Below are positions 28,845-56,828 of a stretch of DNA of 64,000 nucleotides, piece after piece. The translations under genes and the position numbers were made by a program. Positions within the stretch are counted from its first letter, which is position 1. Each line of letters opens with the position of its first letter. This DNA is from an uncultured Monoglobus sp. (GTDB lineage Bacteria; Bacillota; Clostridia; Monoglobales; Monoglobaceae). The stretch spans positions 1 to 64,000 of the forward strand of contig CANQMT010000013.1 in NCBI GenBank assembly GCA_947625055.1. The letters are read 5' to 3'. Below the pieces are notes generated by a model. It did not search any database, was not told the DNA's origin, and saw only the letters and a program-made list of their open reading frames with translations.

Positions 28845-29324
28845 ATGCTTAACTTAAACTGGAATATAATCTGGATCTTTGTGAACATAATCATCCTGTT
28901 CCTTTTGCTGCGTATTTTTCTCTATAAGCCGGTTATGAAGATACTGGACAAGCGCGCCGCCTCGATAAAAAAATCTCTCGACGACGCCGAGGAGGCCAAA
29001 AAAGACGCGGCGGAGCTTAAGGCGAAATACGCTTCGGAGCTTAAAAGCGCCGGCGCCCGAGCCGACGCGATAATAAAAGAGGCTACCGACAACGCGAAGG
29101 TCCAGCGCGAAAAGATAATTGACAAGGCCAAAAACGACGCCGACAACATAATCAAAAGCGCCGAAAAGCAGATCGAGCTTGACAGAGAGCAGGCCATGAA
29201 GGAGATGCGCTCCGAGATCGCCGACATCGCTCTCAGGGCGGCGCACAAGGCCATGGAGCAGGGAGATGTTTCCGAGACCTCTATCAGCAGCTTTTTAAGA
29301 CAGGTAGGTGAGAGCGATGATTAA
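28845..29324 (+). CDS. atpF: ATP synthase F0 subunit b
   Basis: 159 residues: one N-terminal membrane helix ([20 protein letters not shown]) then a long charged coiled coil ([20 protein letters not shown]) that forms the peripheral stalk. GGAGG precedes the ATG. Its stop overlaps the start of the delta-alpha fusion gene by eight bases. Confidence 0.95.
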
Positions 29325-40847: not shown

Positions 40848-40869
40848 AGAATAGTGATTAGTCCTCCCC

Positions 40870-41030
40870 TCTCCGTCTTTTCGCCTCACGGCGAAAATCC
40901 ACCTCTCCCGAGGGAGAGGCAGACGAGCGGCGCATAGCGCCGCTCTGCGGGACGCCGAGGTCGTCGTCCCCTACGACCAAAGCGCGCAAAATGCCGTAGG
41001 GGCGGACGACCTCGGCCGCCCTAGTCCCTA
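40870..41030. repeat. intergenic island of palindromic repeats
   Basis: The 308-base gap between the A2M-like and GH3 genes has no gene. It holds four hairpin elements in a row: TTTTCGCC/GGCGAAAA (40878-40897), CCTCTCCC/GGGAGAGG (40902-40919), GAGCGGCGC/GCGCCGCTC (40925-40945) and a 22-base arm pair at 40954-40975 and 40995-41016 with 20 matches. The last pair shares the CCCCTACG/GTAGGGGCGG and GGTCGTC core with the island at 21.2 kb. It is flanked by GTGATTAG-type and CTAGTCCCTAGTTCC-type sequences also related to other gaps here. Confidence 0.75.
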
Positions 41031-41056
41031 GTTCCTATTCCCCAGTCCCTACGTTG

Positions 41057-41155: not shown

Positions 41156-44100
41156 TTATTTAAGCTCGTCGATAGAGCCGGCGTTGTAGATGTTATTAAA
41201 ACCCTGCTCTTTGGCGATCTCCGCCGCCTGAGCCGCGCGTCTGCCCGAAGCGCAGTAAACGATGATCGTCTCGTCCTTGTCCTGAGTGTCGAGCCACTGT
41301 CCGAACTCATCGACAGGCACGTTGACCGATCCGTCTATGCTGTCCTCGGCGTATTCCTCGGGCGATCTAACGTCGACCGCCACAGCGCCCGCCGCGATAA
41401 GCTCTTTCGCCGCGTCGCCCTTGATGCTCTCCTGGCGCGCGTCGGCGATAGCGATCTCTGCCGTTTCGCCGTTTCCGCTCAGGTAAAGGGTCTCGCCGTC
41501 GCTGCCTAACTCTTTGATGTCAAAGTCACACACCTTTTTGATCGTCGTGCACTTGGAGCAGGGGGTCATGGTTATCATGTATCCCCCGTCGCAGCCCGCG
41601 TAAAGCTGATCGCCCGCGGAAACGATGTCGTTGATAACCGGGGATGAGGGCGCGCCCTCATCCTTTTCGGCATAGCTCACGGGTGTGTGGTTGCCCCAGA
41701 TGTTGAGTGATTTTCCGCCGATTATCTCGTTTTTCCCGCTGTTGTTATTATGCGCGAGAGCGGTGAATGTGCCGTTCCAGTCAACAACCTTTATAAATGT
41801 GACATCTTTGCCGTTCAGTTCGTTATAGTCAATTTTTTCTGTTGTGCCGTCGTTTTTCGTCAGGGTTACGAGCGAGCCGTCAATTTCAATTTTTGCGGTT
41901 TCGTTTTCCGCTGAAAGTACATTCTGCGATAAGGGTTCGCCGACTGAGGCTGTTGTTCCACCCAGGTTATATTTCAGGGTGATACAGTCATGGTTTCCGG
42001 CGTATTTGCCGTCCGAGGTCAGCTTGACAAACAAACCCTTTGTTCCGCTGAATCCCTGTTTTATCGCAAATTGCAGATCGTTATATGTATCCCAGTTTTT
42101 GCCCTGAATGATGTTGACTGAGCCGAGACTGTTTTCGGGAGTCAAAAGCTTGTCAATTGTAGCTCTGTCCGCAGAGGCGACGTCGATACCGGCGGTATCG
42201 ACCGCGAAAAATTCCGCCGACGCGTTTCCGGCGTCATTTCTTGTCGCCGAATACAGATCAATGACTTTGAGGTTATCCATTGTCTGATCGCCGAAATAGA
42301 ATATATCGCCGCCGGCTGTGGTGTCTATAATTTTGCCGCCGCTTGCCGTGTTTGACGCTTTTTCTGTACCGGCTGTTTTGCCGCTTGAATTCCAGCTTTT
42401 GGCGTAATCCTCAAACTCGATCAGGCTATCAAAGTTGGTATCGGGAAGAGGAGCGGGGGTCGGTGTGGCGGTCGGCACGGGAGAAGGCGTTGCCTCGATC
42501 GCTGTCGCTCCGGGCTCGAACAGCACGCCGAACAGCTTCTTGTTGGAGCCGCCGCCGTATACGTAAACGGGAATTCCGGCCTTAACATTCATTTGAACAG
42601 CGGTGGCCGTGTTGTCGTTAATTCCGAATTCGGTTACGCTCTTGCCGTCTTGTTCGATATACATTTGTCTTGTGTCGCTCGCGGCGAATACCGCTGTAAC
42701 TACTCCGTCGCTGTCGGGTGTGAAGTATACGCGCCGCGCGCCTGCCTGGCCCTTTCCGCCCTTGAGCGAGCGGGTGAAGGTGTATGTCACTCCGTTGGTG
42801 TGTTTGTAGGTGATGCCCTTGTCGCTTGCCCAGCCGCCGTCACAGCTCATGCCGAGGGCGCTCTCGGCGGTTACGCCTTCTGAGATAACGAAGAATCTGT
42901 CATAAATGCTGTCGCTGAAATTATAGACATATATATCCTTCATTTCAGGCGCGGTATATACTGTATCTTTTTTCCCGGTCATTGGCTGCATTGTGTCAAT
43001 ATTGTTCCAGCCGAAGATGGAAACTTTGCTGCCGTCTTTGAAGCCGTTCAATAAGTACTTGCCTTTATCGGTAATATTGGCCGTTGATGTGTTTGTCAGA
43101 GCATTTGCCGAGTCATATCCGGCTCCGATCAGAATTCCCGACTCAAGGTTGGTGTTGACCGCGATCGTGCCGTTTCCTATCGAAACAGGGTCAATGTCTT
43201 CATAATTATATTCAAGACTTATATAGTCGAGGTTCGCGCTGTTGGTTTGAACATAAATCGTGCCGCAGCCGTTTTCGTCAAGCGACATTTTGGAGAGCTC
43301 GTAGCGGTTGATTTCCGCCGTTACTTCCGCCCAGTTGGTCCAAGCGCCTGTCGCCTGTGCTTTGACGGAAGCAATAGTCCAGTTGCTGTTCGGGAGCAGC
43401 GAAACGTTGATATCGCTGTCGCCCGAGTCCTTGGAAACTCTGAACTTGATACCCGTCAGTCTGTCAAGCTTAACGCCGTCAAATCTCAGCCACGAGGCTT
43501 TTGTGCTGCCCGCGTCTTTGCCTCCGCTGGCTCCCGCTTTTTCATCGTTCAGGTTTGCGCCCGCGTCGTCGTCCGCGTTTTCGCCCTCGATCTGGAGGTT
43601 GGCGTAAACGATAACGGAGCCGCATTTCTCGTTGGGATAATCGCTCGCGGTTATCTTATAAATTCCGTTGGTGTAAAGCGTGACTTCGCCTGTGGTCAAA
43701 TTGATCTCCGCGTTCTTTCTGGATGAGCCGTCCAGCCTCTCGATCGACCAAACGAGGTCGCTTGATACGGCGCTGCCTTCCGATATTGCCTCCATGGCGA
43801 ATTTTGCGGGATTGCTTTCGTTGATCGCGCCCGTTATTGATGTTGCCGTGGCTGTGATAACGCCTATTCCGTCCGCGTTATAATTGATCTCGCCGCCGGA
43901 TATTATGTTAGAGTCGGCTGAACGGACAGTGTAAGCTTCCGTGAGTTCGATTTTCGGAACAGCCTGCATAGCCGCTATAGTCTCATTCAGCGCGGTCTCA
44001 AGACCGTCGTCTATAAGCGCGGTTTCAAGCGTGGAGCGGAAGTCAGTATAAATTCCTTCGAGTTCGGCCCAATTTTCAGACGTATACGCGATCTTCGGGC

Positions 44101-47100
44101 ATTCCGCGTATACCGCGTCAAGACGGGCGAGATATTCCGCCTTCTTCGCCGGGTCGATTCCTTCGCGGTACAGAGAAACGACCGGGAACGAGTATTCGGC
44201 GCTGCTGCCGTCTTCCTTAGAAGCTTTTACCGTGATCGTGGCGGTGCCTTCCTTGGCGCCTGCCGTAACGTTTCCGGCCGCGTCAACATTGGCGACTTCC
44301 GGATTGTTGCTGCTGTATGTTACCGTTATGCCGTTTGCGGCAAAGTCGGTGATGACCTTGTCGTTTTTAAGCGTAACGCTGGCGTTTGCCGAAACGGTGT
44401 TCGCGGCGTCCGCGCCGTTGTTAACGCTGTATACTTTAAGTCCCGAAGGGATAGCGTAAACGCTCTTGACGGTTTCGGCGATAGTGCCGCTTACGCTGAA
44501 CTTAACAGTGTGGCTTTCGGCGTCCGCCGAGCTGCCGCCGACTTTGGCGGTGTACTCGCCGGGGATAACGTAGTTCTGCTGATTTGCCTCGTCAAAGAAG
44601 AACACGTCCGAAAGGTCAAGGCTGAATGTCGCGGTCTTGGTCTCGCCGGGATCTAATGTCACTCTTTCAAAGCCCTTGAGCTGCTTTAAGGGCAGCGTCT
44701 TGCCGTCCGCGCCGGGAACGGTTATGTAAAGCTGAGCTACCTCGGTTCCCGCCGCGCTGCCTGTGTTCTTAACGTCGGCGGTGATCGTCACGGTGTCATT
44801 CGCGTCCGCTGAGGCTTTGTCTATCTTAACGTTTGAATATTCGAATGTGGTGTAGCTTTCGCCGTAGCCGAAGGGATAAACCGGTGTTCCGCTGTAATAC
44901 TGGTAGGTCCTTCCGGGATATTGTGCCTCGGGGTTGTTTATGTCATAAGCCAGTTCGTAGCTTGTGAAATTGTAATCAACTCCGTCCACATTTGTTCTTG
45001 GCGATCCTATCGGCATTTTGTCAAGATCGGCCTTGGTGTACCATGTGGTGGTCAGCTTGCCCGAGGGGTTGACCGCGCCTGTCAGCACCTTGCCCAGAGC
45101 CTCGCCCTGCCTCTGACCGTTGTATGACGTCCAGAGCATTGCGGCGCACTTGTCCTTAAATCCCTCAACGTTTATCTGGCCGACCGTCTGCAAAACAACG
45201 ATCGTCTTAGCGGGGAACTCGTCGCAAATCTGCTGAACATGGCTCTGTGTTGTCGGAAGGTCAATAGACGCTCTGTCGTTTGATTCGCTGGAGTCAGCTT
45301 CGGTGGTTCCGCCGTAGGCTATGATATAGTCGGCTGTTTCAAGCGCGCCTCTGTAGTTGTCGATCGAGAAATCCGCGCTCGCGTCGATCTTGATATACAT
45401 ATCGCGGGTCTCGGTGTAGCCGCCGGTTGCTCCGTTGTACACGCCGGAGTTTACGGCGTAGGTGTCCGCGTTAGCGGTATTCTGGATCTGAACCGATGCT
45501 ACGGCCTGATTAATGCTTCCGTAGCCGACTGTTACCGTGACCTTGGGCATTCCGGGCATTGACGCCGCCTCTATAAGCACGTCGGTCACATTCGCGAAGT
45601 TAACGCTCGGAATTACGGCCACTCCGTTTGAGGTTATGTTCATAAGACCGTCTTCGCCCTTGCTCATACCGACTGTGTTTTTGGCGGTCGATAAGTCCAG
45701 TTTAAGGTCGCCGCCGCTGCTGCGTTTTAAGGTTATGCTTTTTATGTTGAACAAAGGTGTTGTGCCGCTTACGCTTCCGATAAGCTGGACCGTTGAGTTC
45801 GGGTTTATCTGCTTTACAGCCTGCGTTATTCCGTCAAGCGGATTTATAGTCTTTGTCGGCTCTCCGGAATAGTCGCCCAAAACAACATCGTCAGCCTTAT
45901 CGCCGACAATGGCTATGTTCAAGGCTTTCGATGAGTCATTAAACGGCAGCGCGCCGTCGTTTTTGAGCAGGACCCAGCTTTCCTCTGCCGCTTTCTCGGC
46001 AACGGCAACATGTTCGTCGGTTTCAATAACATCGGACTTGATGTCCTGATACTTGGCGCCGTTGTCAAACTCGCCTGTTCTCATACGCTGAAGAAAAACG
46101 TTATACAGCGCCAGATCCAAGTCGTCCTCGCTTATCAGACCCGCGTTTACCGCGGCAACGAGCTGAGCTGTTCCGTTGCCGTCGCCGCCGCAGTCAAGGC
46201 TTGAGCCGGCCTTGATTATCTTGGAGACTGTCATGGCCGCCGTTATGTCCTCAATGTTCATATCGGGATAGAGCTTCTGTTTAAGAGGCGCTCTGCCGTA
46301 GGCGTTGTCCCAGGCGCCGCAGTCGCCGACGATAAAGCCGCCGAATCCGTATGCTCTTTTCAGAACATCACTCAACAAATATGAGTTGGCGCTCGAGGCG
46401 ATATAGTCGATCTTCTGACCGTCCATTGATGTGAGTATCTCGCCGTTTCTGTAGAGCGTGGTTCCGTTATAAGAGCTCATTACCGCGCCCGGATCCGAAC
46501 TCATAACAATATCGCGGAACGCGCGGGAATAATACTCGCGCATCGTGCGCTCGTTCATGATCGAGGTTCCCGTCTGACGCTCGCCCTCGCAGTTGTTGGC
46601 GGCATAATGCTTGATTGTGGCGATGACCTTTAAATATTTTTCATCGTCGCCCTGCATTCCGCGAACAGCGGCGCCGCCGATCTGAGCCGTCAGAAACGGA
46701 TCTTCGCCGTAGCTTTCCTCGTTTCTGCCCCAGCGCGGGTCGCGCGCCATATTGATCGTCGGGTTCCAGTAGTTTAAGTCATAGCGCGGGTTCTTGCCTC
46801 TCGCTTCGGTGGACATGATATCCATGCTCGTCTGCATAAGAGCCGTGTCCCATGTGTTGGACATTGCAAGGCTTGAGGGAAAGCTTGTGGCAACGCCCAA
46901 TCTTGCAACGCCGTGTATACCCTCGTTCCAGTAGTCATACTTGCTGACGCCGAGACGGCTGATCGCGGGCGTGCCCTTGGCCGCGGTCTGCGCCGCTTTT
47001 TCCTCAAGTGTCATGCGCGAAACCAGATCGGCCGCTCTTTCCTCAAAAGAGAGCGATGTGTCCTGATAGGGCAGCAGATCGGCTGCCGCCTGAACTTCGG

Positions 47101-47272
47101 GCGTCTCGGGCCGGACCGTCTGATCTGCGGCCTGCTCGTTTTGGACTGCCTGCTCCGCCGCGGGCTGCGGCTGCGCGTTATCGTCCGTCGCCGCCAGGAC
47201 AGCCGCGTTCGGAGCGCAGGTCAGCAGCATCGCGGCCGCCGCTAACGCGGATATTGTTTTCCGTACTTTCAT
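41156..47272 (-). CDS. giant secreted GH3 glycoside hydrolase with carbohydrate-binding modules and a C-terminal rhodanese domain
   Basis: 2038 residues; CAAGGAGG precedes the ATG. The signal peptide is at 1-28. The GH3 barrel (about 85-390) has nucleophile D317 in GGFIVGDCGAWDN and KHYAANNCEGERQTG, closest in style to beta-xylosidase/arabinosidase GH3s. The GH3 C domain (about 440-785) is interrupted by a beta module at about 504-624. A fibronectin-like domain (814-914), a Big_2 repeat (about 947-1024), CBM6/35-like modules (about 1225-1350 and 1620-1740) and a short Cys-bearing beta region follow. The end is a rhodanese domain (about 1944-2038, VAVDVRSPEEYAEDSIDG) with active-site C2007 in YCASGRR. 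It probably acts outside the cell on hemicellulose. The rhodanese tail is very unexpected. An AraC gene is divergent. Confidence 0.9.
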   Translation of the reverse strand: MKVRKTISALAAAAMLLTCAPNAAVLAATDDNAQPQPAAEQAVQNEQAADQTVRPETPEVQAAADLLPYQDTSLSFEERAADLVSRMTLEEKAAQTAAKGTPAISRLGVSKYDYWNEGIHGVARLGVATSFPSSLAMSNTWDTALMQTSMDIMSTEARGKNPRYDLNYWNPTINMARDPRWGRNEESYGEDPFLTAQIGGAAVRGMQGDDEKYLKVIATIKHYAANNCEGERQTGTSIMNERTMREYYSRAFRDIVMSSDPGAVMSSYNGTTLYRNGEILTSMDGQKIDYIASSANSYLLSDVLKRAYGFGGFIVGDCGAWDNAYGRAPLKQKLYPDMNIEDITAAMTVSKIIKAGSSLDCGGDGNGTAQLVAAVNAGLISEDDLDLALYNVFLQRMRTGEFDNGAKYQDIKSDVIETDEHVAVAEKAAEESWVLLKNDGALPFNDSSKALNIAIVGDKADDVVLGDYSGEPTKTINPLDGITQAVKQINPNSTVQLIGSVSGTTPLFNIKSITLKRSSGGDLKLDLSTAKNTVGMSKGEDGLMNITSNGVAVIPSVNFANVTDVLIEAASMPGMPKVTVTVGYGSINQAVASVQIQNTANADTYAVNSGVYNGATGGYTETRDMYIKIDASADFSIDNYRGALETADYIIAYGGTTEADSSESNDRASIDLPTTQSHVQQICDEFPAKTIVVLQTVGQINVEGFKDKCAAMLWTSYNGQRQGEALGKVLTGAVNPSGKLTTTWYTKADLDKMPIGSPRTNVDGVDYNFTSYELAYDINNPEAQYPGRTYQYYSGTPVYPFGYGESYTTFEYSNVKIDKASADANDTVTITADVKNTGSAAGTEVAQLYITVPGADGKTLPLKQLKGFERVTLDPGETKTATFSLDLSDVFFFDEANQQNYVIPGEYTAKVGGSSADAESHTVKFSVSGTIAETVKSVYAIPSGLKVYSVNNGADAANTVSANASVTLKNDKVITDFAANGITVTYSSNNPEVANVDAAGNVTAGAKEGTATITVKASKEDGSSAEYSFPVVSLYREGIDPAKKAEYLARLDAVYAECPKIAYTSENWAELEGIYTDFRSTLETALIDDGLETALNETIAAMQAVPKIELTEAYTVRSADSNIISGGEINYNADGIGVITATATSITGAINESNPAKFAMEAISEGSAVSSDLVWSIERLDGSSRKNAEINLTTGEVTLYTNGIYKITASDYPNEKCGSVIVYANLQIEGENADDDAGANLNDEKAGASGGKDAGSTKASWLRFDGVKLDRLTGIKFRVSKDSGDSDINVSLLPNSNWTIASVKAQATGAWTNWAEVTAEINRYELSKMSLDENGCGTIYVQTNSANLDYISLEYNYEDIDPVSIGNGTIAVNTNLESGILIGAGYDSANALTNTSTANITDKGKYLLNGFKDGSKVSIFGWNNIDTMQPMTGKKDTVYTAPEMKDIYVYNFSDSIYDRFFVISEGVTAESALGMSCDGGWASDKGITYKHTNGVTYTFTRSLKGGKGQAGARRVYFTPDSDGVVTAVFAASDTRQMYIEQDGKSVTEFGINDNTATAVQMNVKAGIPVYVYGGGSNKKLFGVLFEPGATAIEATPSPVPTATPTPAPLPDTNFDSLIEFEDYAKSWNSSGKTAGTEKASNTASGGKIIDTTAGGDIFYFGDQTMDNLKVIDLYSATRNDAGNASAEFFAVDTAGIDVASADRATIDKLLTPENSLGSVNIIQGKNWDTYNDLQFAIKQGFSGTKGLFVKLTSDGKYAGNHDCITLKYNLGGTTASVGEPLSQNVLSAENETAKIEIDGSLVTLTKNDGTTEKIDYNELNGKDVTFIKVVDWNGTFTALAHNNNSGKNEIIGGKSLNIWGNHTPVSYAEKDEGAPSSPVINDIVSAGDQLYAGCDGGYMITMTPCSKCTTIKKVCDFDIKELGSDGETLYLSGNGETAEIAIADARQESIKGDAAKELIAAGAVAVDVRSPEEYAEDSIDGSVNVPVDEFGQWLDTQDKDETIIVYCASGRRAAQAAEIAKEQGFNNIYNAGSIDELK

Positions 47273-47322
47273 GATTTTTCCTCCTTGATTGTGATATTTG
47301 AATAAAATTTATAATTTTCTAC

Positions 47323-47351
47323 TTGAAATATACCACAAATCCTGCTATAAT
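47323..47351 (+). promoter_or_regulatory. sigma-A promoter of the AraC regulator
   Basis: TTGAAA (47323-47328) and TATAAT (47346-47351), 17-base spacer. The GH3 gene starts 50 bases away on the other strand, so the 138-base gap is a shared control region. Confidence 0.8.
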
Positions 47352-47410
47352 TAAAGTCATATTATATATAAAACAAGACAAAAAGTATAATGAAAGGATG
47401 TGTCTGTTAA

Positions 47411-48217
47411 ATGCTTCCGGTTTATGAAATAAGACCCTCGGATCTGACGGTCAAGCGCAATGATTACCAACTGAGTTATCCGGAGCATATGCACGATTAT
47501 ATTGAGATAATATACGTGTATAAGGGCATGCAGAGGCTCAACATCGAAAGCGGCGGTTTTGAGATTCGCGAGGGCTGCCTCGCGGCGGTGTTCCCGGAAA
47601 CGGTCCATTCGTTTTCCGCGCCCGACGGACAGGACAAAAAGAACAATGAGGTGCTGATACTCATGTGCGCACCGAAAATGTTCGGCGGACTGTTCCCGAA
47701 CCTCAAGGACCTCAGACCCGAAAACCCGATAGTTGACAAGGAAGATATATGCGGCGGGTTTCGCTGCGCTCTTGAAAACATAAAGCCGGGCGAGAGTTTT
47801 GACGTGACATTTTCCTGGGCCTGCGTGATCGTTTCGTATTTGTTAAAGGCGCTGACTCTGAAGCACAAGTCCGACGGGCCGGTGACGGATATAACCTATA
47901 AGATAATAAAATACATAGAGCAGAATTTTACCGAGACAATAACCCGGCGTTCCATAGCCGAGCATTTCGGCGTGAGCGAGAGCTATATTTCGGCGATATT
48001 CAGCGGCAGATTCAAGATGAACCTCAGAAACTATCTCGGCCTTATCCGCGCCGAATATGCCGCGGGGCTTATCCGCTCGACAAGCGAGAGCTTTACGCTC
48101 ATAAGCCAGGAGGCGGGATTTGACAATCCGAGGACGTTTAATCGTATGTTTAAGGCGGCGTACGGGCAAACGCCGAGGGAATACCGCAGAAATATCAACC
48201 GTCTGATCAAAGATTGA
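47411..48217 (+). CDS. AraC-family regulator, cupin sensor type
   Basis: 268 residues. The N-terminal cupin-like half contains SYPEHMHDYIEIIYVYKG and the EGCLAAVFPETVHSF strand pair. The C-terminal pair of helix-turn-helix motifs (about 170-266) includes TRRSIAEHFGVSESYISAIF and the family end SQEAGFDNPRTFNRMFKAAY, GQTPREYRR. It likely senses a sugar and switches the divergent GH3 gene and perhaps the genes downstream. No membrane segments. Confidence 0.9.
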   Translation: MLPVYEIRPSDLTVKRNDYQLSYPEHMHDYIEIIYVYKGMQRLNIESGGFEIREGCLAAVFPETVHSFSAPDGQDKKNNEVLILMCAPKMFGGLFPNLKDLRPENPIVDKEDICGGFRCALENIKPGESFDVTFSWACVIVSYLLKALTLKHKSDGPVTDITYKIIKYIEQNFTETITRRSIAEHFGVSESYISAIFSGRFKMNLRNYLGLIRAEYAAGLIRSTSESFTLISQEAGFDNPRTFNRMFKAAYGQTPREYRRNINRLIKD

Positions 48218-48283
48218 ACTGTACTTTGGTACGGCGACAGTGAAATTTCGTTGTGTTATAATAATACTGAGGAGGTACAATAG

Positions 48284-50659
48284 ATGGATGGCGGCAAACT
48301 GATCATCAGGACGCGTCTTATTGAAAGGCTCAGCAAAGAGCTTAAACATAAAAAAATCGTGTATTTCGGAGCGCATATAGGCTGGGGAAAGACTACTGCC
48401 GTAAAGCAGTATCTCGAATCCAACAATTACCGATATTGTTATGTTTCCGCACGCGAAAGCGATTGGCACGCCGCGGCTGCGAACGCCGTGGAGTCAGGCG
48501 CGGAGCATATAGTCATTGATGATGTACATCTGGCATACTCTAAGGGCGGCGAAATTTCCGCTCTTATAACATCGTCGGCTCCCGGCACGATGTTTTATAT
48601 TATCGGACGCGCACCGCTCCCTCCATATCTCAAAGCGTTTTACAGCACCCGACAGCTCGTTGTTTATGATGAAACGCTCTTTGCATGTAACAGCGACGAG
48701 CTGACCGCTTTGGCCGAATTGTACCGCCTTGATTTAACCCCAAATACCCTGCACGAGATTCGCGAGTTTACCGAAGGGTGGATACTCGGATCGGTATTCT
48801 TGTTCGAAAAGGGCGGAGACTTCGGCGCGGGCTTTACGGAAGAGCAGAAGCAACTGATCAGCCTTGACATATATCAGTATGCGGATCACGCGTTTTTTTC
48901 GGAGCTTCCGCCCGAAGTGCAGGAGATACTTCTGAACGTGGCGCATGTTGACGAGTTCACGCTCGGCCATGCGCAGATGCTTTGCGGAAATACCGATATA
49001 AAACAATGGCTCGAGCGCGCGCTGAACTTGAGCTGTTTTTTGTGCTTTGTACCCCCGGATGATTTCAGCTTCAGCAAATATGCCGCGCCGTATTTTAAAT
49101 GGAAACAGAAAAAGGAGCTCAGCGAGGACGCGCTGGCGAGACAGTACGAGATCTCGGCGCTCTATTATACGCTGCATGATGATATAAGAAGCGCGCTAAG
49201 ATTTTACAAAATGGCCGGCAACACCCGAAAGATCGCCGAGCTGCTTCTTAAAAGCACAAGGAACAATCAAAGCATGAGTTTTTTCTATGAGCTGCGGGAA
49301 TATTTTTTTGAATTGCCGTATGAGACGGTGATCCAATATCCGGAGCTTATCAGCATGATATCCATGATATATTCAATCATATGCAATATCGACGAGAGCG
49401 AGCGGTATTTTGATATGCTGACGGAGATCGAAAATGACGAAAAGAGCGACGCCGCAATGAAAAAACGCGCCCGCGAGGAATTGGCCTATCTCACGATCTC
49501 GCTTCCGCACCGCGGCACGAACAGTATTGTGAAGATCGTCAAAAGCCTGGCCTCGATCATATTAAGCCGCGACATGAGCATAAACGTCATGAGCGTGACA
49601 GCGGATATGCCGAGCCTTGTGAACGGGGGTAAGGATTTCAGCGAATGGACAAAATCCGACAGATTTTTGTATAAGACCATGCGCAAACCGCTGCAGACGG
49701 TGGTCGGCAAAAACGCTCTCGGACTCCCGGATATAGGGATCGGCGAGAGTTTGTTCCTGCATAACGCCGACGACAATTTCACCGAGGAACTGACATATCT
49801 GAGCCAGGGATTTTATGACGCGGAAAAATGCGGGAACATACAGCTCCAATTTGCCGCGCTGGCGGTCATGGCGAAAATACATATTATCCGCGGCAATTTA
49901 AGCGGCGCGGTCGATCTGGTAAAGAGGTTTGACAAAAGGCTCCCGAGATACGCGGAAATCAGAAAAAACATCAGCGCGTTCATGACGAATATCATGATGT
50001 TTTCCGGCGATGACGAGTATATGCGGAACTGGATAAAAAACGAGGCTCCCGATGAGCTTGAGGACTTTTGCATAACCTTTCGCTATCAATATATGACAAA
50101 GGCCAAAATTTACATCGTGTTTGAGCAATATGACGAGGCTCTGGCGCTTCTCGGCAGATGCGGCAAATATTTTATTGAGTACGAAAGACCGTATATGCAT
50201 ATCGAGGCGCTCATTCTGAGAGCGGTAATATTGAACAGATTAAGCGATCCGGCTTGGGATGAGGCGTTTTCGGAAGCTCTTAAATTATGCGAGGAGTACC
50301 GTTTTGTGCGTATCGTTTCAAACAACGGTATCGCCGTGCTGGATCTGCTGCGAAAGACCTCCGCCGATATTAACAAGCAGTTCAAAAAATCGCTGCTGGA
50401 TTGCACAAAACGGCAGGCGGTGCTTTATCCGAAATATTTGCAGCCCGTAATAAAAACCGATTATAATCTGAGCGGAACCGAACGCATGGTGCTTAAACTG
50501 TTGTGCGACGGACTTTCAAATGAAGAGATAGGCAGGATAATGAACATATCCCTGCGCACGGTAAAGTTCCACCTCACGAATATATACAGCAAAATGAACG
50601 TCAAGAACCGTTTCGCGGCGATCCGCGAGGCGCAGATCAAAAAAATAATTACCCAATAA
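48284..50659 (+). CDS. MalT-like STAND ATPase with LuxR-type DNA-binding domain
   Basis: 791 residues, preceded by GAGGAGGT. Walker A GAHIGWGKTT near residue 29, Walker B EHIVIDDVHL, then a winged-helix and a long helical TPR-like region (about 290-700). The C-terminus is a LuxR/GerE domain (about 728-790, SGTERMVLKLLCDGLSNEEI, then TVKFHLTNIYSKMNV). MalT-type proteins bind an inducer and ATP, oligomerise and activate transcription. Placed between the GH3/AraC pair and the pectate lyase gene, it probably controls the polysaccharide locus. The inducer is unknown. Confidence 0.9.
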   Translation: MDGGKLIIRTRLIERLSKELKHKKIVYFGAHIGWGKTTAVKQYLESNNYRYCYVSARESDWHAAAANAVESGAEHIVIDDVHLAYSKGGEISALITSSAPGTMFYIIGRAPLPPYLKAFYSTRQLVVYDETLFACNSDELTALAELYRLDLTPNTLHEIREFTEGWILGSVFLFEKGGDFGAGFTEEQKQLISLDIYQYADHAFFSELPPEVQEILLNVAHVDEFTLGHAQMLCGNTDIKQWLERALNLSCFLCFVPPDDFSFSKYAAPYFKWKQKKELSEDALARQYEISALYYTLHDDIRSALRFYKMAGNTRKIAELLLKSTRNNQSMSFFYELREYFFELPYETVIQYPELISMISMIYSIICNIDESERYFDMLTEIENDEKSDAAMKKRAREELAYLTISLPHRGTNSIVKIVKSLASIILSRDMSINVMSVTADMPSLVNGGKDFSEWTKSDRFLYKTMRKPLQTVVGKNALGLPDIGIGESLFLHNADDNFTEELTYLSQGFYDAEKCGNIQLQFAALAVMAKIHIIRGNLSGAVDLVKRFDKRLPRYAEIRKNISAFMTNIMMFSGDDEYMRNWIKNEAPDELEDFCITFRYQYMTKAKIYIVFEQYDEALALLGRCGKYFIEYERPYMHIEALILRAVILNRLSDPAWDEAFSEALKLCEEYRFVRIVSNNGIAVLDLLRKTSADINKQFKKSLLDCTKRQAVLYPKYLQPVIKTDYNLSGTERMVLKLLCDGLSNEEIGRIMNISLRTVKFHLTNIYSKMNVKNRFAAIREAQIKKIITQ

Positions 50660-50682
50660 AAAGCGCGAAACGCGCTTTTTTT
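50658..50682 (+). terminator. intrinsic terminator of the STAND/LuxR gene
   Basis: AAAGCGCG-AAA-CGCGCTTTTTTT directly at the stop codon: an eight-base stem, three-base loop and T run. Confidence 0.92.
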
Positions 50683-50693
50683 GCTTTTGGGTC

Positions 50694-50722
50694 TTTAAAT
50701 TATAAAAATTATGTGTTATAAT
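50694..50722 (+). promoter_or_regulatory. promoter of the pectate lyase gene
   Basis: TTTAAA (50694-50699) and TATAAT (50717-50722), 17-base spacer. The weak -35 box fits a gene needing an activator such as the upstream MalT-like protein. Confidence 0.65.
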
Positions 50723-50754
50723 ATTCAATATATAACTTTTAAGGGGGATTAAAC

Positions 50755-53700
50755 ATGAGACATTGCACAGGATTTAAAAGAATGTTTTGCGCTTGTATGG
50801 CGGTTATGCTCTTTGCGTTTTCATTGACCGCCGCTCCCGTTATTGCCGAGGGCGAAACGGGCGGCGCGGCGTATTATACAAAAGATCCGGTGATAAGCGG
50901 CGGAAAAACGGTCACGGCGGAGATCGTCAACGAAAGCGGCGAGAATGTTCTGTTTATAGCGGCCGCGTATGAGGACGGGGCCGTTTCGGACGCCGAAACT
51001 CAAACGATTTCGTCGGGAAGCGGAAGCGTCGAGGCGAGAGTCGAGTTTGACAAGGAGTATACCGACGTCAGGTGCTATCTTTGGTCCGAAAGCAGCATAG
51101 AGCCTTACGGCGACGTGACCGACGCGCTGCCCGATCTGCTGCCCGCGTTCCCGGGCGCCGAGGGCGGCGGAAAATTTTCTCCCGGAGCCAGAGGCGCGCT
51201 GCCCGGCGGCAAACTCGCGGTGTACCATGTGACGCAGCTCGGCGACTCGGGCACGGGAAGCCTGCGCGACGCGGTCTCAAAGTCGGGAAGGATCGTAGTG
51301 TTTGACATAAGCGGCACGATCGAGCTCAAAAGCGATATAAATATGAACAGGGACAACGTCACGATACTGGGCCAGACCGCGCCCGGCGACGGCGTGACTG
51401 TCAGCGGCGGCTCGATAGTAACGGGCGACGGAGTTAAGAATATAATAATAAGATATTTAAAGGTGCGTCCCACCGATAAGAACGGCGGAGAGCCCGACGG
51501 AATCGGCGGCAGATACGGTACCGATATAATTTTTGACCATGTCAGCACCTCATGGTGCGTTGACGAGCTGCTTACCCTTTACGCGGGTGCTGCTCAGGAC
51601 GCGAAACCAGACAAACCCGTGGGCAATCATCTGACGATCCAGAACACGATCGGAAGCGAGAGCCTGCGCATGAGCAACCACACCAAGGGCGCGCACGGCT
51701 ACGGCGCGATCTGGGGCGGCACCTATGCCAGCTATCTGAATAACCTGCTGGCTCACCACGACAGCCGCAGCCCCCGTCTTGACCGTCAGCTTGTCGCGAC
51801 CGACGTCAGCAACAACGTAATATACAACTGGGGCCAGACCAACTCGGCTTACGGCGCCGAGCCTTATTCGAGCGCCAATGAGAAATCGACCGCTGACCAG
51901 AGGAACCCCTCAAACGTGAACTGGGTCGGAAACTATTACAAGTCGGGCCCGTCCACCAGAGCGATGCTCAAAACAAGGGTGTTCGACGTGACCGAGCCCC
52001 TGACCGCTGCCGACAGAAAATCCGTGTTCTATTTTGACGATAACTATATTTACGGAATGGGTACGGTAAGCGACTATAAGAACAACAGCATAGTAAACAA
52101 TTATGTCGGTGCGGATTTCGCCGACAGCGAGATCGACATGGGATATTACAAATACCGTCAGACCTCGGCGGAAGAGGCCTTTGACCGCGTCCTCAGCACC
52201 GCGGGAGCGACTTTGCCGCGGCGCGACGCGAACGACGCCAGAATAGTTAACGACGTTATAAACGGCACAGGCAGAGTTATCAACAACGCCGGAGAGGTCG
52301 GCGGTCTGATACCCGTAGAGTCCGAGACGAGAGTGTTTGAGGTACCCGCCGATTGGCTGAATGACAACGGCTATGCCGGTATGGCAGAGACCGACATCAC
52401 GGACAGCGGCTACACCGTTATCGAGGAATATGTTAACTATCTGACCGAGGAGATGAGCAAGACTCCGCCGACCAACGCCAATATCGTTGTGCAGTCGCCC
52501 GCGATCGCGGCGCTCACCGATAATATCGAGGGCATGGAGGTCGACAACGGCGAGTGGACGGTCATCACCGAGGGCGAGCCGCTGAGATATAAGGCGACGG
52601 CGATAGCCCGAGGCGGAAATGAGGTCACAAAAATGGAGCTCTATGACCGCAACGCCAAGATCGGTGATTATGACGGCTCCGCGATTGACAGCGATATACA
52701 GCTCAATGTCGGAACGCATTACCTCACCTGCCGCGCGATAAACACCCGCGGCGAAAAGACGCAAAGCACGACCTCTATCGTTTATGTCAAGTCGGCGGCG
52801 GCCCCGGGCAGCTACTCTTTTGAGGAGATCAAAGAAAACGGCTACACCGGATACGCCGGCAAAGGCGGCGCCTCGATGGACGAGAAGGGCGTTTACACGA
52901 TTTACGGCTCGGGCAGACTCACCACCGATTCAAGCGATAGCTGCGGTTTTATGTACAAAGAGGTCAGCGGCGACTTTGACGTGACCGTCAGAGTCGAGGA
53001 GATACCAAAGTTTGAGAATCAGCAGGTGAGCGGTCTCATGGTGCGTTCGGGATTTAATCAGGGCGACATAATGGCGATGATAGGCGACGGCTGGGTAAAG
53101 AACGGCGAAAACGCCAGGATCCTGACCCGAAAGAGCGAAAAGGGCTCATCTCAGGAAATATATTTCATGGACAAGAGCGGCGCGCCCGTTGACAATTCGG
53201 ACGACAAGCACAGCAAGAGCATGCCGAAATATATGAGAATACAGAGAAACGGCAACAGCTTGACGTTCAGCGTTTCCAACATGGGTATCGACTGGACCGA
53301 CAACGACCGCCAGCCCGTGACGATCGAGTACGACAATCTGCCCGAGACTATGTATGTGGGTCTTGCGACCGACTCGGCAAACGGAGTCTCTGTGAAAGAA
53401 TATTTCTCAGTCGCTAAATTCAGCAATCTGGTGTTAAACGGCGAGAGAGACGTTGAACCTCCGGAGAAGGGAGAGGTCCCGTTCTATGATGAGGATTTTT
53501 ACAGCGCCGATTGGTTCTTCCCGTCGGGCAGCGGCCCCAAAAGTTTAGCGGATACTCCTCTTGACGGAAACATAGACGACGCGGCGCTGTTCTGGGGCCC
53601 ATGCTACAGAAATTTTAAGCCTCAAAACGCGGGCGTCGTCAAAGCGACGGCAGACTTCTTCACCAGAACCACGCCGAGGGTGGATCCTGATGCAGGAGCG

Positions 53701-54081
53701 AGATTTATGTTGCAGGGCATAAACGAAGCCGGCGAAACGGTCAAGATAAAGAGCGTCTACGCGCAGCATTCGCTGGGATTTTTCGAGGACTATGACGACA
53801 CACCCTCAAAGCCGGAGATCACTCCGACGTCCGACGCCAAATATGATATAGAAAAATGGTACAAGGTCGAGATGACTCTTGACTACAACACGGGAAAGGG
53901 AACATATTCATTTAAACCCTATACCGAATATAACTCGTCAATCGGAAAGTATGAGACGGGCGCTTCGATATTCGATCTCACGTTTGACTTTGACACAAGC
54001 GTGGCTGTCAGCCAGCTCCACTTTGAGCGCCGCGGCGGTTTTGAGATGTATCTCGACAACGTCGGCGTAAGCGTTGAATAA
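50755..54081 (+). CDS. secreted multidomain PL1-type pectate lyase
   Basis: 1108 residues after AAGGGGG. The signal peptide is at about 1-31 (FAFSLTAAPVIAEG). A small beta domain leads to a right-handed beta-helix lyase (about 128-560), recognised by LPAFPGAEGGGKFSPGARG, YHVTQLGDSGTGSLRDAV, FDISGTIEL, DHVSTSWCVDELLT and HGYGAIWGG. An Ig-like domain (about 580-680) follows, then a jellyroll module (GDFDVTVRVEEIPKFENQQV, about 690-900) and a C-terminal beta domain. It should cleave polygalacturonate outside the cell by beta-elimination. No dockerin, sortase or SLH motif is visible. Confidence 0.88.
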   Translation: MRHCTGFKRMFCACMAVMLFAFSLTAAPVIAEGETGGAAYYTKDPVISGGKTVTAEIVNESGENVLFIAAAYEDGAVSDAETQTISSGSGSVEARVEFDKEYTDVRCYLWSESSIEPYGDVTDALPDLLPAFPGAEGGGKFSPGARGALPGGKLAVYHVTQLGDSGTGSLRDAVSKSGRIVVFDISGTIELKSDINMNRDNVTILGQTAPGDGVTVSGGSIVTGDGVKNIIIRYLKVRPTDKNGGEPDGIGGRYGTDIIFDHVSTSWCVDELLTLYAGAAQDAKPDKPVGNHLTIQNTIGSESLRMSNHTKGAHGYGAIWGGTYASYLNNLLAHHDSRSPRLDRQLVATDVSNNVIYNWGQTNSAYGAEPYSSANEKSTADQRNPSNVNWVGNYYKSGPSTRAMLKTRVFDVTEPLTAADRKSVFYFDDNYIYGMGTVSDYKNNSIVNNYVGADFADSEIDMGYYKYRQTSAEEAFDRVLSTAGATLPRRDANDARIVNDVINGTGRVINNAGEVGGLIPVESETRVFEVPADWLNDNGYAGMAETDITDSGYTVIEEYVNYLTEEMSKTPPTNANIVVQSPAIAALTDNIEGMEVDNGEWTVITEGEPLRYKATAIARGGNEVTKMELYDRNAKIGDYDGSAIDSDIQLNVGTHYLTCRAINTRGEKTQSTTSIVYVKSAAAPGSYSFEEIKENGYTGYAGKGGASMDEKGVYTIYGSGRLTTDSSDSCGFMYKEVSGDFDVTVRVEEIPKFENQQVSGLMVRSGFNQGDIMAMIGDGWVKNGENARILTRKSEKGSSQEIYFMDKSGAPVDNSDDKHSKSMPKYMRIQRNGNSLTFSVSNMGIDWTDNDRQPVTIEYDNLPETMYVGLATDSANGVSVKEYFSVAKFSNLVLNGERDVEPPEKGEVPFYDEDFYSADWFFPSGSGPKSLADTPLDGNIDDAALFWGPCYRNFKPQNAGVVKATADFFTRTTPRVDPDAGARFMLQGINEAGETVKIKSVYAQHSLGFFEDYDDTPSKPEITPTSDAKYDIEKWYKVEMTLDYNTGKGTYSFKPYTEYNSSIGKYETGASIFDLTFDFDTSVAVSQLHFERRGGFEMYLDNVGVSVE

Positions 54082-54189
54082 GAACAACATTGCGGTGATT
54101 ACGTTCGGCCTATCCTGCGGCGTTTACTGTGATTATCGGCTTGCCGGAAGTTTAATTAACGGTATTTGGCATAGAATTTCGGAGGCTTT

Positions 54190-55539
54190 ATGGATCAAAA
54201 TTTTACCGAGGGAAAAATCCTTCGCCAGCTTATAGGCTTCGCGCTGCCGATGCTGCTGGCGCTTTTCCTTCAGGCGATGTACGGCGCGATAGATCTGCTG
54301 GTCGTTGGGCGCTTCGGGGTTTCCGCCGACGTCTCGGCGGTTTCCACCGGCAGCCAGATCATGCAGACGATAACCTTTATGATCGAGGGCGTGTCTATGG
54401 GAATAACCGTTCTCGCCGGACACAGAATAGGCGAGGGCAACAATAAAGAGGCGGGGAGAGTGATAGGCAGCGGCATCGCGCTGTTCGGAATCATCGCCGT
54501 TTTGGCGACGGCGCTCATGCTGTCCTGCTCCCGCCCGCTGGCCGCGCTTATGCGCGCGCCCGAAGAGGCTTTTGATCTGACGGTGAAATATATTTTTTGG
54601 TGCTCGGCGGGCATGGTTTTCATTGTGGCATATAATTTGCTGGGCAGCATTTTCCGCGGTGTGGGCAACTCAAAGATACCGCTCATGACCGTGGCTATCG
54701 CCTGTGCGTTTAACATAATCGGCGATTTGATTTTTGTGGCGGGCTTTAAAATGGGCGTCGCGGGCGCGGCGCTTGCCACGGTCATGGCTCAGGGCGTCAG
54801 TGTGCTGCTGTCGCTTGTCATAATCCGGCGTATGAAAATGCCGTTTAAGCTCACCCGCCGCGATATCCGTCTGAGAAGGAGGATAGTCAAGCGGATATTG
54901 TTCCTGGGCGTTCCGATAGCCCTGCAAGACCTTCTGGTCAGCGTGTCGTTTCTGGTGATCCTCGCCATTGTGAACTCCCTGGGCCTTGTTGCCTCGGCGG
55001 GAGTCGGCGTGGCCGAAAAGCTGTGCGCGTTTATTATGCTGGTACCGTCGGCATATATGCAGTCGATGTCCGCGTTTGTGGCGCAGAACATAGGCGCCGA
55101 GAAATACGACCGCGCCAAAAGAGCGCTGCTCTGCGGGATTTTGTCGTCATTGGCGGTGGGCGTTGTGATGTTTTACATATCTTTCTTTCAGGGAGATGTT
55201 TTGTCAACGATATTCACAAGCGATCCTCAGGTCGTTTCGGCCGCGGCGAGCTATCTTAAGGCTTATTCGCTTGACTGCATTTTGACGTCGTTTCTGTTCT
55301 GCTTCAGCGGCTATTTCAACGGCTGCGGGCGGACAATGTTCAACATGATACAGGGAGTGCTGGGCGCGTTCTGTGTGCGCATACCCGTCTCGTATTTTGT
55401 GAGCCGGATCGCGGGCGTTTCCTTGTTTTACATAGGCCTCGCGACGCCGTGCTCGACAATAGTGCAGATCATAATTTGCGCGGCATATTTTATAATTACC
55501 GAAAGAAAAGCCCGCGGACCGCGCGGCGCGGAAATGTAA
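54190..55539 (+). CDS. MATE-family efflux transporter
   Basis: 449 residues with about 12 membrane helices. N-terminus ILRQLIGFALPMLLALFLQA, first-half GAIDLLVVGRFGVSADVSAV and the repeat half YSLDCILTSFLFCFSGYFNG are typical of the NorM/DinF-like group. It exchanges protons or sodium for organic cations or drugs. Placed between pectate lyase and an esterase it might export a sugar derivative, but that is only context. A preceding gap of 108 bases has no clear promoter. Confidence 0.9.
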   Translation: MDQNFTEGKILRQLIGFALPMLLALFLQAMYGAIDLLVVGRFGVSADVSAVSTGSQIMQTITFMIEGVSMGITVLAGHRIGEGNNKEAGRVIGSGIALFGIIAVLATALMLSCSRPLAALMRAPEEAFDLTVKYIFWCSAGMVFIVAYNLLGSIFRGVGNSKIPLMTVAIACAFNIIGDLIFVAGFKMGVAGAALATVMAQGVSVLLSLVIIRRMKMPFKLTRRDIRLRRRIVKRILFLGVPIALQDLLVSVSFLVILAIVNSLGLVASAGVGVAEKLCAFIMLVPSAYMQSMSAFVAQNIGAEKYDRAKRALLCGILSSLAVGVVMFYISFFQGDVLSTIFTSDPQVVSAAASYLKAYSLDCILTSFLFCFSGYFNGCGRTMFNMIQGVLGAFCVRIPVSYFVSRIAGVSLFYIGLATPCSTIVQIIICAAYFIITERKARGPRGAEM

Positions 55540-55548
55540 GGAGAGAGT

Positions 55549-56490
55549 ATGATTAACGTTTATTTGCTCGGAGATTCGATCGTGACGGCTTATGGCGGCG
55601 ATCATGAAAATATTATAGGAGGCTGGGGAGACCACTTGGGCAGCTTTTTTGACGGCGGAGTCAGGGTCGTTCCCTGCGCCGAGGGCGGGAAAAGCACCCG
55701 CAGCTATTTAAACGACGGAAGATTTATCGACAACGGGAAATTTACAAAGGATATGTTCCCTTACGGCGTCGGACCGTGCCTCAGGCTGATCGGGAAAGGG
55801 GACTTTGCGCTGATCGAGTTTTGTCATAACGACGATGATTCCGCGAGGAGCGAGAAGCGCGGGCTCCGCCACACGCCGCTCGGCGGGCCCGATAGCCGCG
55901 GCGTCTACCCGAGCGCCCTTCCGGAGGGTGACACGCCTTATGCGTTTGACTGCGGAGCCACCTATAAAGGATTTTTAAAATTCTACATAAGAAAAATAAA
56001 AGAAAAGGGCGCGATTCCCGTGCTTGTGACTCCGCCGCCCAGAGGATATTTTAAGAACGGAAAGATCGCCTCGGTGCCGGGCAACCACGGCGGCAGCGAT
56101 AAATTCGGAGATTACGCCTATGTTCGCGCCATGCGGCAGACCGCGGAGGAAGAAAGCGTTCCGCTGATCGAGCTGTTTGACAGGGCGAAAGCGTATATTG
56201 ACGGGCTCGGCGAGGAAAAGTTCAAATATCTCCAGTCGATCAAGGACGAGGAAGGCAGGACCATCGGCGAGGCGCGCTTCGGCAGACCCAAACGCTGGCC
56301 CGAAGATTATGATGAGATCATGGAGAGCGAGGCCTTTGCGGAGACCGACAACACTCACCAGAACCGCTACGGCTCTTTTGTGTACGCCTCGTTCATAGCC
56401 GATGAGATAAAACAAAAGATCCCCGCCTTGGCCGGGCACATTCTTGACGTTCCCGCAAAAAAAGTACCCCCGCCAAAAGGCCTCGAATAA
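55549..56490 (+). CDS. SGNH esterase, rhamnogalacturonan acetylesterase-like
   Basis: 313 residues, no signal peptide, start nine bases after the MATE stop with AGGAGAGAG. SGNH motifs: Ser in LLGDSIVTAYG near residue 10, block III EFCHNDDDS, and the late Asp/His in DNTHQNRYG near 270. It resembles YesT/RhgT enzymes that take acetyl groups from pectic rhamnogalacturonan fragments. Being cytoplasmic, it would act on imported products of the secreted lyase. Confidence 0.85.
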   Translation: MINVYLLGDSIVTAYGGDHENIIGGWGDHLGSFFDGGVRVVPCAEGGKSTRSYLNDGRFIDNGKFTKDMFPYGVGPCLRLIGKGDFALIEFCHNDDDSARSEKRGLRHTPLGGPDSRGVYPSALPEGDTPYAFDCGATYKGFLKFYIRKIKEKGAIPVLVTPPPRGYFKNGKIASVPGNHGGSDKFGDYAYVRAMRQTAEEESVPLIELFDRAKAYIDGLGEEKFKYLQSIKDEEGRTIGEARFGRPKRWPEDYDEIMESEAFAETDNTHQNRYGSFVYASFIADEIKQKIPALAGHILDVPAKKVPPPKGLE

Positions 56491-56570: not shown

Positions 56571-56828
56571 ATGCCTAATATAAGACCCGTATCGGATTTG
56601 AGAAACTATAATGAGGTTTTGCGGGAGATCACGATCGACTCGCCGGTATTTTTGACAAAAAACGGCAGAGGCAGATACGCGATCGTGGATATAAAAGAAT
56701 ATGAAAAAACCAACGCGGTTTTAAAGTTGATGGGCAAGCTTGCCGATGCCGAAAAATCAGCCAAAGAGAACGGCTGGATTACCGCTGAGCACACCGAGAA
56801 GGCGCTGGGCGTATATAGTTTTTTATAA
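56571..56828 (+). CDS. Phd/YefM-family antitoxin
   Basis: 85 residues after AAGGGGG. The Phd/YefM DNA-binding fold is clear: PNIRPVSDLRNYNEVLREI, then SPVFLTKNGRGRYAIVDIKE. The C-terminus (AEKSAKENGWITAEHTEKAL) would bind a RelE/ParE toxin. The last residues (VYSFL) run into the stump of that toxin, so the natural C-terminus may have been changed by a deletion. It may survive as a stand-alone regulator. Confidence 0.88.
   Translation: MPNIRPVSDLRNYNEVLREITIDSPVFLTKNGRGRYAIVDIKEYEKTNAVLKLMGKLADAEKSAKENGWITAEHTEKALGVYSFL

Follow-up and report, generated by a model that had tools for sequence, protein, structure and literature searches.

What holds a secreted glycosidase, two different regulators, a pectate lyase, a transporter and an esterase together in one stretch of Monoglobus DNA, and why does the glycosidase end in a rhodanese? 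The six genes lie in succession at positions 41,156 to 56,490 of the window, by which we mean the whole stretch of 64,000 nucleotides analysed (contig CANQMT010000013.1 of assembly GCA_947625055.1, from an uncultured Monoglobus sp. whose genome is 2.21 Mb long and 99% complete). A check of the open reading frames of the window bore out the genes, their order and the coordinates given by an earlier, sequence-only reading. The region very probably consists of two units side by side, in the first of which an AraC regulator is linked to the gene of a glycoside hydrolase family 3 (GH3) protein. This divergent AraC/GH3 pair is the older unit; the block formed by a STAND regulator and a PL1-type pectate lyase is a later neighbour at the level of the genus. 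The GH3 protein carries a propeller-rhodanese tail, a module found together with GH3 in five families of the class, either fused or encoded by a neighbouring gene for a secreted protein or lipoprotein. The gene and its parts are as follows.

41156-47272, minus strand: gene of the GH3 protein
44528-46918, minus strand: GH3 catalytic region, residues 119-915 (Pfam, alignments)
41438-41908, minus strand: beta-propeller-like domain, residues 1789-1945, about four blades (AlphaFold2 (AF2) model, VIA-align, alignment)
41159-41437, minus strand: rhodanese domain, residues 1946-2038, with catalytic-type loop CASGRR and Cys 2007 (PF00581, VIA, alignment)

The encoded protein is secreted and multidomain, its 2038 residues comprising a signal peptide, the N and C domains of GH3, Fn3-like, Big-like and CBM6 modules, propeller blades and a rhodanese. 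Both GH3 domains score above their curated cut-offs (PF00933, 99 bits, cut-off 27; PF01915, 143 bits, cut-off 31); the CBM6 and Big-like modules, the propeller-like domain and the rhodanese had been overlooked. The rhodanese match covers residues 1954-2030 (PF00581, 59.2 bits, cut-off 22.2), and the NCBIfam model rhoda_near_glyco (NF045521) gives 36 bits, below its curated cut-off of 145. An AF2 model of the tail, 250 residues built on 30 aligned rows, has a predicted local distance difference test (pLDDT) of 92 and a predicted template modelling score (pTM) of 0.80. Its back half superposes in VIA-align on the rhodaneses 3tp9 (Z 15.1, 92 residues, 1.5 A) and GlpE, 1gmx (Z 14.1, 95 residues, 2.1 A). 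The front half resembles propellers of the WD40/YCF48 type (Z 12-14, 133-146 residues, 2.6-3.7 A), an assignment that claims no closer family and leaves room for an unlisted one. The catalytic Cys of the rhodanese is kept in 30 of 30 aligned relatives, and the loop Arg in 26 rows, being replaced by Lys in one and by Trp in three. A Cys triad of the propeller (1894, 1905 and 1908, C...CxKC) is invariant in the same 30 rows and is also present in four more distant proteins.

How closely does this tail follow GH3? The source genome has only three rhodanese matches, in frames of 1687-2075 residues, and all three proteins are GH3. Across 12 genomes of the genus, 30 of 34 rhodanese matches fall in frames of at least 1311 residues; the remaining four frames measure 609, 441, 393 and 145 residues, and the two longest of these also match the tail profile. 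A peptide-pattern scan of 84,980 species genomes returned 42 tail loci: 36 fused in frame to GH3 sequence, five stand-alone and one cut by a contig end. Three of the stand-alone tails (L097, L098, L105) have GH3 directly beside them and a fourth (L084) has a piece of the GH3 middle region upstream; the contig of the fifth (L087) ends at the tail, so that GH3 is seen beside four of five. A profile search of 391 genomes of the class found 37 full-length matches in 17 genomes, spread over five families, together with one propeller-only match (in G017), and the matches weaker than the latter span essentially the rhodanese alone. Nine full-length matches lie outside the own family, and seven were examined, the two of G284 being left out; all seven are tied to GH3. 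The tail is fused in G111, sits on a fused fragment in G183 and accompanies a GH3 read across two consecutive frames in G385; it is a separate gene neighbouring GH3 in G245 (two loci), G191 and G057. These last, stand-alone tails are longer, most of them begin like lipoproteins or membrane-anchored proteins, and a response-regulator gene lies near three of the four. In a phylum-wide draw of 398 genomes, only the source genome appeared at E <= 1e-30, which suggests that the module has a narrow distribution beyond the class, and a scan of viral contigs with the tail found no relatives.

The catalytic region indicates what sort of enzyme bears this tail. The putative nucleophile, D317 in GFIVGDCGAWD, aligns with GWITSDCDAVDN of the solved GH3 structure 7vc6. 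A W-x-E-x-x-H-G motif of the xylosidase type, shared with the aligned xylosidase, occurs in 19 of 19 GH3 domains, and the best matches are beta-xylosidases; the NCBIfam equivalog cut-off of Xyl3A is not reached (459 against 1250 bits). The accessible text of PMC8913315 places Trp87/Glu89 of TrXyl3A at C5/O4 in GH3 xylosidases and describes a disulfide on the beta-face of subsite -1. By alignment we take this active-site disulfide to correspond to C318-C361, two residues that are invariant in all 19 domains and of which the first adjoins D317. The family contains three GH3 clades. Clades A and B have signal-peptide-like N-termini; clade C lacks a signal peptide in three of four members checked, the fourth having an uncertain start, and is thus probably cytoplasmic. 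A second Cys pair, 683 and 709, follows these clades: both residues are present in five of five clade-A sequences, 709 in four and 683 in three of four clade-B sequences, and neither in the four of clade C, as one would expect if the pair formed a disulfide in the exported proteins. From its sequence, the GH3 protein is a secreted enzyme of the beta-xylosidase/arabinosidase type that probably trims side chains of pectin or hemicellulose; cohesin and dockerin domains on one GH3 partner likewise point to cell-wall polysaccharide.

A rhodanese joined to a glycosidase might instead detoxify or capture a reactive aglycone freed by GH3, either cyanide from cyanogenic glycosides or the sulfur of glucosinolates, with the propeller acting in the manner of plant specifier proteins, which are propellers. 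Beta-glucosidases occur among GH3 enzymes, a GH3 myrosinase has reportedly been found in Citrobacter, and the bacterial myrosinase literature, in the text open to search, mentions GH3 and Citrobacter together. Cyanide is an acceptor for the rhodanese PspE (PMC2593051, accessible part). We nevertheless regard such a role as very improbable, since the xylosidase-type motif argues against a glucose-releasing function, as do the beta-xylosidase best matches, and the cohesin-dockerin partner speaks for a polysaccharide substrate.

What, then, ties the AraC regulator to the GH3 gene? The intervening region and the regulator are arranged thus.

47323-47351, plus strand: promoter toward AraC, TTGAAA-17-TATAAT (from sequence; conserved in the aligned loci)
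47355-47380, no strand assigned: proposed AraC operator, AGTCA at 47355-47359 and AGACA at 47376-47380, 21-bp period (sequence motif)
47411-48217, plus strand: AraC/XylS-family regulator, paired with the GH3 gene

The regulator has both an AraC-type helix-turn-helix (PF12833, HTH_18, 67 bits) and a sensor domain (PF02311, AraC_binding, 45.7 bits). The divergent pair is present in 13 of 13 clade-A loci in which both genes are visible (the own genome, G002, G003, G005, G006, G007, G009-G014 and G017), and in G002, G003, G005, G014 and G017 it stands without STAND. It is also found in clade C and in other families; the AraC proteins are 37-63% identical to that of the window. One clade-C GH3 gene (L005 2175-10366), which lacks a signal peptide and has its own AraC, is flanked by two aldo/keto-reductase-like genes with ferredoxin-like ends. 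The 13 aligned GH3-AraC intergenic regions share TACTTGAA, TATAAT, AGTCA and AGACAAAA. On the strand opposite TTGAAA-17-TATAAT, a TATA-like -10 can be read toward GH3, so that the two promoters would stand face to face. AGTCA and AGACA lie 21 bp apart, two helical turns, a spacing also seen in operators of the AraC type. The joint motif TATAATNAAAGTC...AGACAAAAA has two matches in the whole genome, both in AraC/GH3 promoters (that of the window and that of clade C), and none in the reversed control. The upstream regions of G111, G385 and L098 show, by eye, similar boxes with at least one base change, which do not satisfy the strict pattern.

The second unit and the genes farther down are laid out as follows.

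48221-48238, no strand assigned: 18-bp element GTACTTTGGTACGGYGAC before STAND, the same in 9 of 9 genomes except at Y
48284-50659, plus strand: MalT-like STAND P-loop NTPase with TPR and LuxR-type (GerE) DNA-binding domain
50755-54081, plus strand: secreted PL1-type pectate lyase with C-terminal extension
54190-55539, plus strand: MATE-family transporter (MatE match)
55549-56490, plus strand: SGNH/GDSL esterase, rhamnogalacturonan-acetylesterase-like, no obvious signal peptide

The earlier family assignments hold, by Pfam for GH3, AraC and MatE and with caveats elsewhere. The STAND protein is a member of the STAND/LAL group by its Walker A motif (GAHIGWGKTT), a GerE match of 67.5 bits and a partial TPR match; it falls short of the MalT equivalog (PRK04841, 88.6 against 537 bits) and of the TPR_MalT cut-off (38.8 against 45). 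A Pfam scan of the PL1 protein returned no pectate-lyase domain, and NCBIfam PelZ gives 108 bits, below its cut-off of 840; homology to the solved pectate lyase 9buj (E 8e-40) places the protein among these enzymes. For the SGNH protein, the closest structure is rhamnogalacturonan acetylesterase 1deo, a weak match (E 1.4e-6, query residues 3-115), and the GDSL models stay below cut-off. The genome has 12 PL1-type matches at E <= 1e-30, and according to the accessible part of PMC12163728, M. pectinilyticus has PL1 and CE8 in abundance. A conserved in-frame TAA in PL1 paralogues was considered and dropped: in five of five fetched loci it is the ordinary gene end, the alignment having run to or past the stop.

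Is the whole region one pectin or hemicellulose system of operon-like kind, with GH3, PL1, MATE and SGNH under the joint control of AraC and STAND? The proposal that it is a single polysaccharide-use system is right in so far as its genes are conserved together in the genus. Nine of 12 genus genomes have STAND, the eight orthologues outside the own genome being 74-85% identical, and PL1 directly follows STAND in eight of the nine, with the gene order kept as far as PL1: in the own genome, G006 (where the contig ends inside PL1), G007, G009, G010 (whose PL1 is only 68% identical), G011, G012 and G013. G008 differs: the gene next to its AraC-STAND pair is convergent and unrelated, and PL1-MATE is on a separate contig. 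PL1 and the acetylesterase-like protein both fit pectin, and the STAND and PL1 promoters of the window have an extended -10, TGTTATAAT, in common. The coherence weakens beyond PL1 and beyond the genus. The MATE gene lies farther off in G009, G010, G011 and G013; in G011, the one of these four read in detail, a kinase-like and a peptidase-like gene lie between PL1 and MATE (L019 15010-17542). Only one of 26 other family genomes has a STAND relative, at 30% identity. Within the genus, G005 (99% complete, one contig), G004 (74% complete) and G014 (79% complete) have no STAND gene, and in these as well as in other genera AraC/GH3 and PL1 lie apart; the PL1 relatives of G002, G003, G004, G005, G014 and G017 occur in other contexts. 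Control of the pectin genes by STAND, which had been proposed, finds no footing in the promoters: the conserved 18-mer has no second exact match in the genome and does not occur in the PL1 promoter, no common operator by which STAND could govern PL1 was found, and a terminator-like hairpin separates the two genes. A single STAND regulon, sought through the same 18-mer, was set aside as well (one exact and two three-mismatch genome copies, against one match of the reversed control). One jointly controlled system is therefore unlikely; AraC goes with the GH3 gene, and STAND is the later neighbour of that pair.

Two further claims about the locus call for adjustment. A STAND ATPase controlling pectin genes next to an AraC regulator was called unusual in Clostridia, but TPR_MalT matches occur in 95 of 291 genomes of the class, 31 of them above the curated cut-off; several of the best are frames of 790-940 residues, and some matches are generic TPR proteins. 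A sugar importer is indeed absent among those window genes that were scanned, a set smaller than all the open reading frames of the window. This says little, because the whole genome has only two PF01547 binding proteins and no KduI. As a separate observation, the AraC/GH3-tail locus of G385 (L148 26-15074) is flanked by three PL1-like genes, and no STAND match is listed for that genome; it is a second case of the AraC/GH3-tail unit beside pectin lyases.

What might a rhodanese do on an exported glycosidase? Based on these observations, we favour the following model. AraC would probably sense a sugar released from the plant cell wall and activate the GH3 gene through the direct repeat spaced by 21 bp, and the exported GH3 protein would trim side chains of pectin or hemicellulose. 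The propeller-rhodanese tail could handle sulfur or thiols for the GH3 protein to which it belongs, acting on it in cis. Sulfane sulfur, from thiosulfate or polysulfide, might load the rhodanese Cys; the loaded rhodanese might then form or protect C318-C361, the disulfide next to the catalytic nucleophile, and the Cys triad of the propeller might serve as a relay or a metal site. Unit 2 would remain the genus-level STAND-PL1 block, with MATE and SGNH farther down. Precedents can be found in the accessible parts of two papers: PspE together with DsbC partly replaces DsbA/DsbB in disulfide formation (PMC5403849), and PspE hands the sulfur of thiosulfate on to dithiothreitol, whereupon sulfide is released (PMC2593051). 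Taken as a whole, with two units, an AraC-driven GH3 gene and a tail acting on GH3, the model has in our judgement an even chance of being correct; its sulfur step, in the disulfide version, is a tentative suggestion and more doubtful.

The competing view is that the module is a non-catalytic device for docking, anchoring or sensing, its rhodanese fold a mere scaffold. Propellers commonly bind partners, and the lipoprotein-like or membrane-anchored stand-alone tails with response-regulator genes nearby would suit such a function. A clade-C-like GH3 in G017 (L153 3172-8286) keeps the propeller Cys triad without any rhodanese, which favours a scaffold and at the same time weighs against our model. 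Further points tell against the latter. The loop Arg is lost in three of the four clade-C rows of the 30-row alignment, the rhodanese part of G057 is broken by an in-frame TGA, and the C318-C361 disulfide is read from an alignment. Outside the own family, the tail has been found on some large GH3 genes, not on every one. On the regulatory side, the own clade-B GH3 (L004) has no adjoining AraC, and the clade-C intergenic region of G005 has only degenerate boxes. Clade C cuts both ways: it retains the tail without a clear signal peptide, which does not suit a partner of exported enzymes and speaks also against surface anchoring. A pure scaffold need retain neither the catalytic Cys nor the loop Arg, and both are largely kept, the former throughout. 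The scaffold is thus, to us, a possible but doubtful explanation, and we continue to prefer a tail that acts on GH3.

What would follow from such an action? A glycosidase with a built-in rhodanese joins two chemistries that are usually investigated separately. Should the rhodanese act on its glycosidase, anaerobes would be able to make disulfides without oxygen in their exported fibre-degrading enzymes, or would have in them a switch that responds to sulfide; if GH3 is gated by sulfur, gut sulfur chemistry would control the digestion of plant fibre. We speculate, well short of expecting it, that in some anaerobic Clostridia a cell-wall glycosidase is paired with a dedicated sulfurtransferase outside the cell, either on the same chain or as a lipoprotein encoded with it, and that this partner uses sulfane sulfur in place of oxygen to build or gate the active-site disulfide of GH3. 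The recurring fused and neighbouring forms and the conserved AraC operator make these ideas directly testable.

Other features of the window deserve a brief record. Convergent to the GH3 gene lies a gene for a secreted alpha-2-macroglobulin-like protein of 1593 residues (36066-40847, plus strand), which is also found beside GH3 in G007 and G012; the gap between the two (40860-41050) holds repeat-like intergenic sequence. A frame of 679 residues at 29308-31347 (plus strand) fuses the delta (OSCP) domain of ATP synthase to the alpha subunit, an unusual atpH-atpA fusion; in G017 (L153), a pair of unfused frames with corresponding sizes resembles atpH and atpA. After the SGNH gene comes a short Phd/YefM-like antitoxin frame (56571-56828, plus strand) with a score just below the curated cut-off. 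An Rfam scan of the window gave no family at gathering score, and a tRNA scan found none.

How does the locus compare with known systems? Our search, which did not take in most subscription papers or the principal genome paper on Monoglobus (Kim et al. 2019), found no published description of a GH3-propeller-rhodanese architecture. Cell-wall glycosidase units built on GH3 are a known kind; for one that has a putative sulfur-handling partner, the search yielded no description. The STAND protein shares the P-loop, TPR region and LuxR-type helix-turn-helix of the STAND/LAL activator MalT, yet scores far under the MalT equivalog cut-off. With the GH3 beta-xylosidases PcBxl3 (7vc6/7vc7), TrXyl3A and Xyl3A, the window protein has in common the GH3 domains, the W-x-E-x-x-H-G motif and an SDC/GDC nucleophile region, but it is far larger and adds Big and CBM6 modules and the propeller-rhodanese tail. 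The blades are arranged as in WD40/YCF48-type beta-propellers, whereas the fused form has about four of them and an invariant C...CxxC. PspE and GlpE, single-domain rhodaneses of E. coli, have the same fold and a CxxxxR-type loop, and PspE also works outside the cytoplasm (PMC2593051, accessible part); unlike either, the rhodanese of the window shares a chain with propeller blades and a glycosidase, and in some relatives it is encoded beside a glycosidase.

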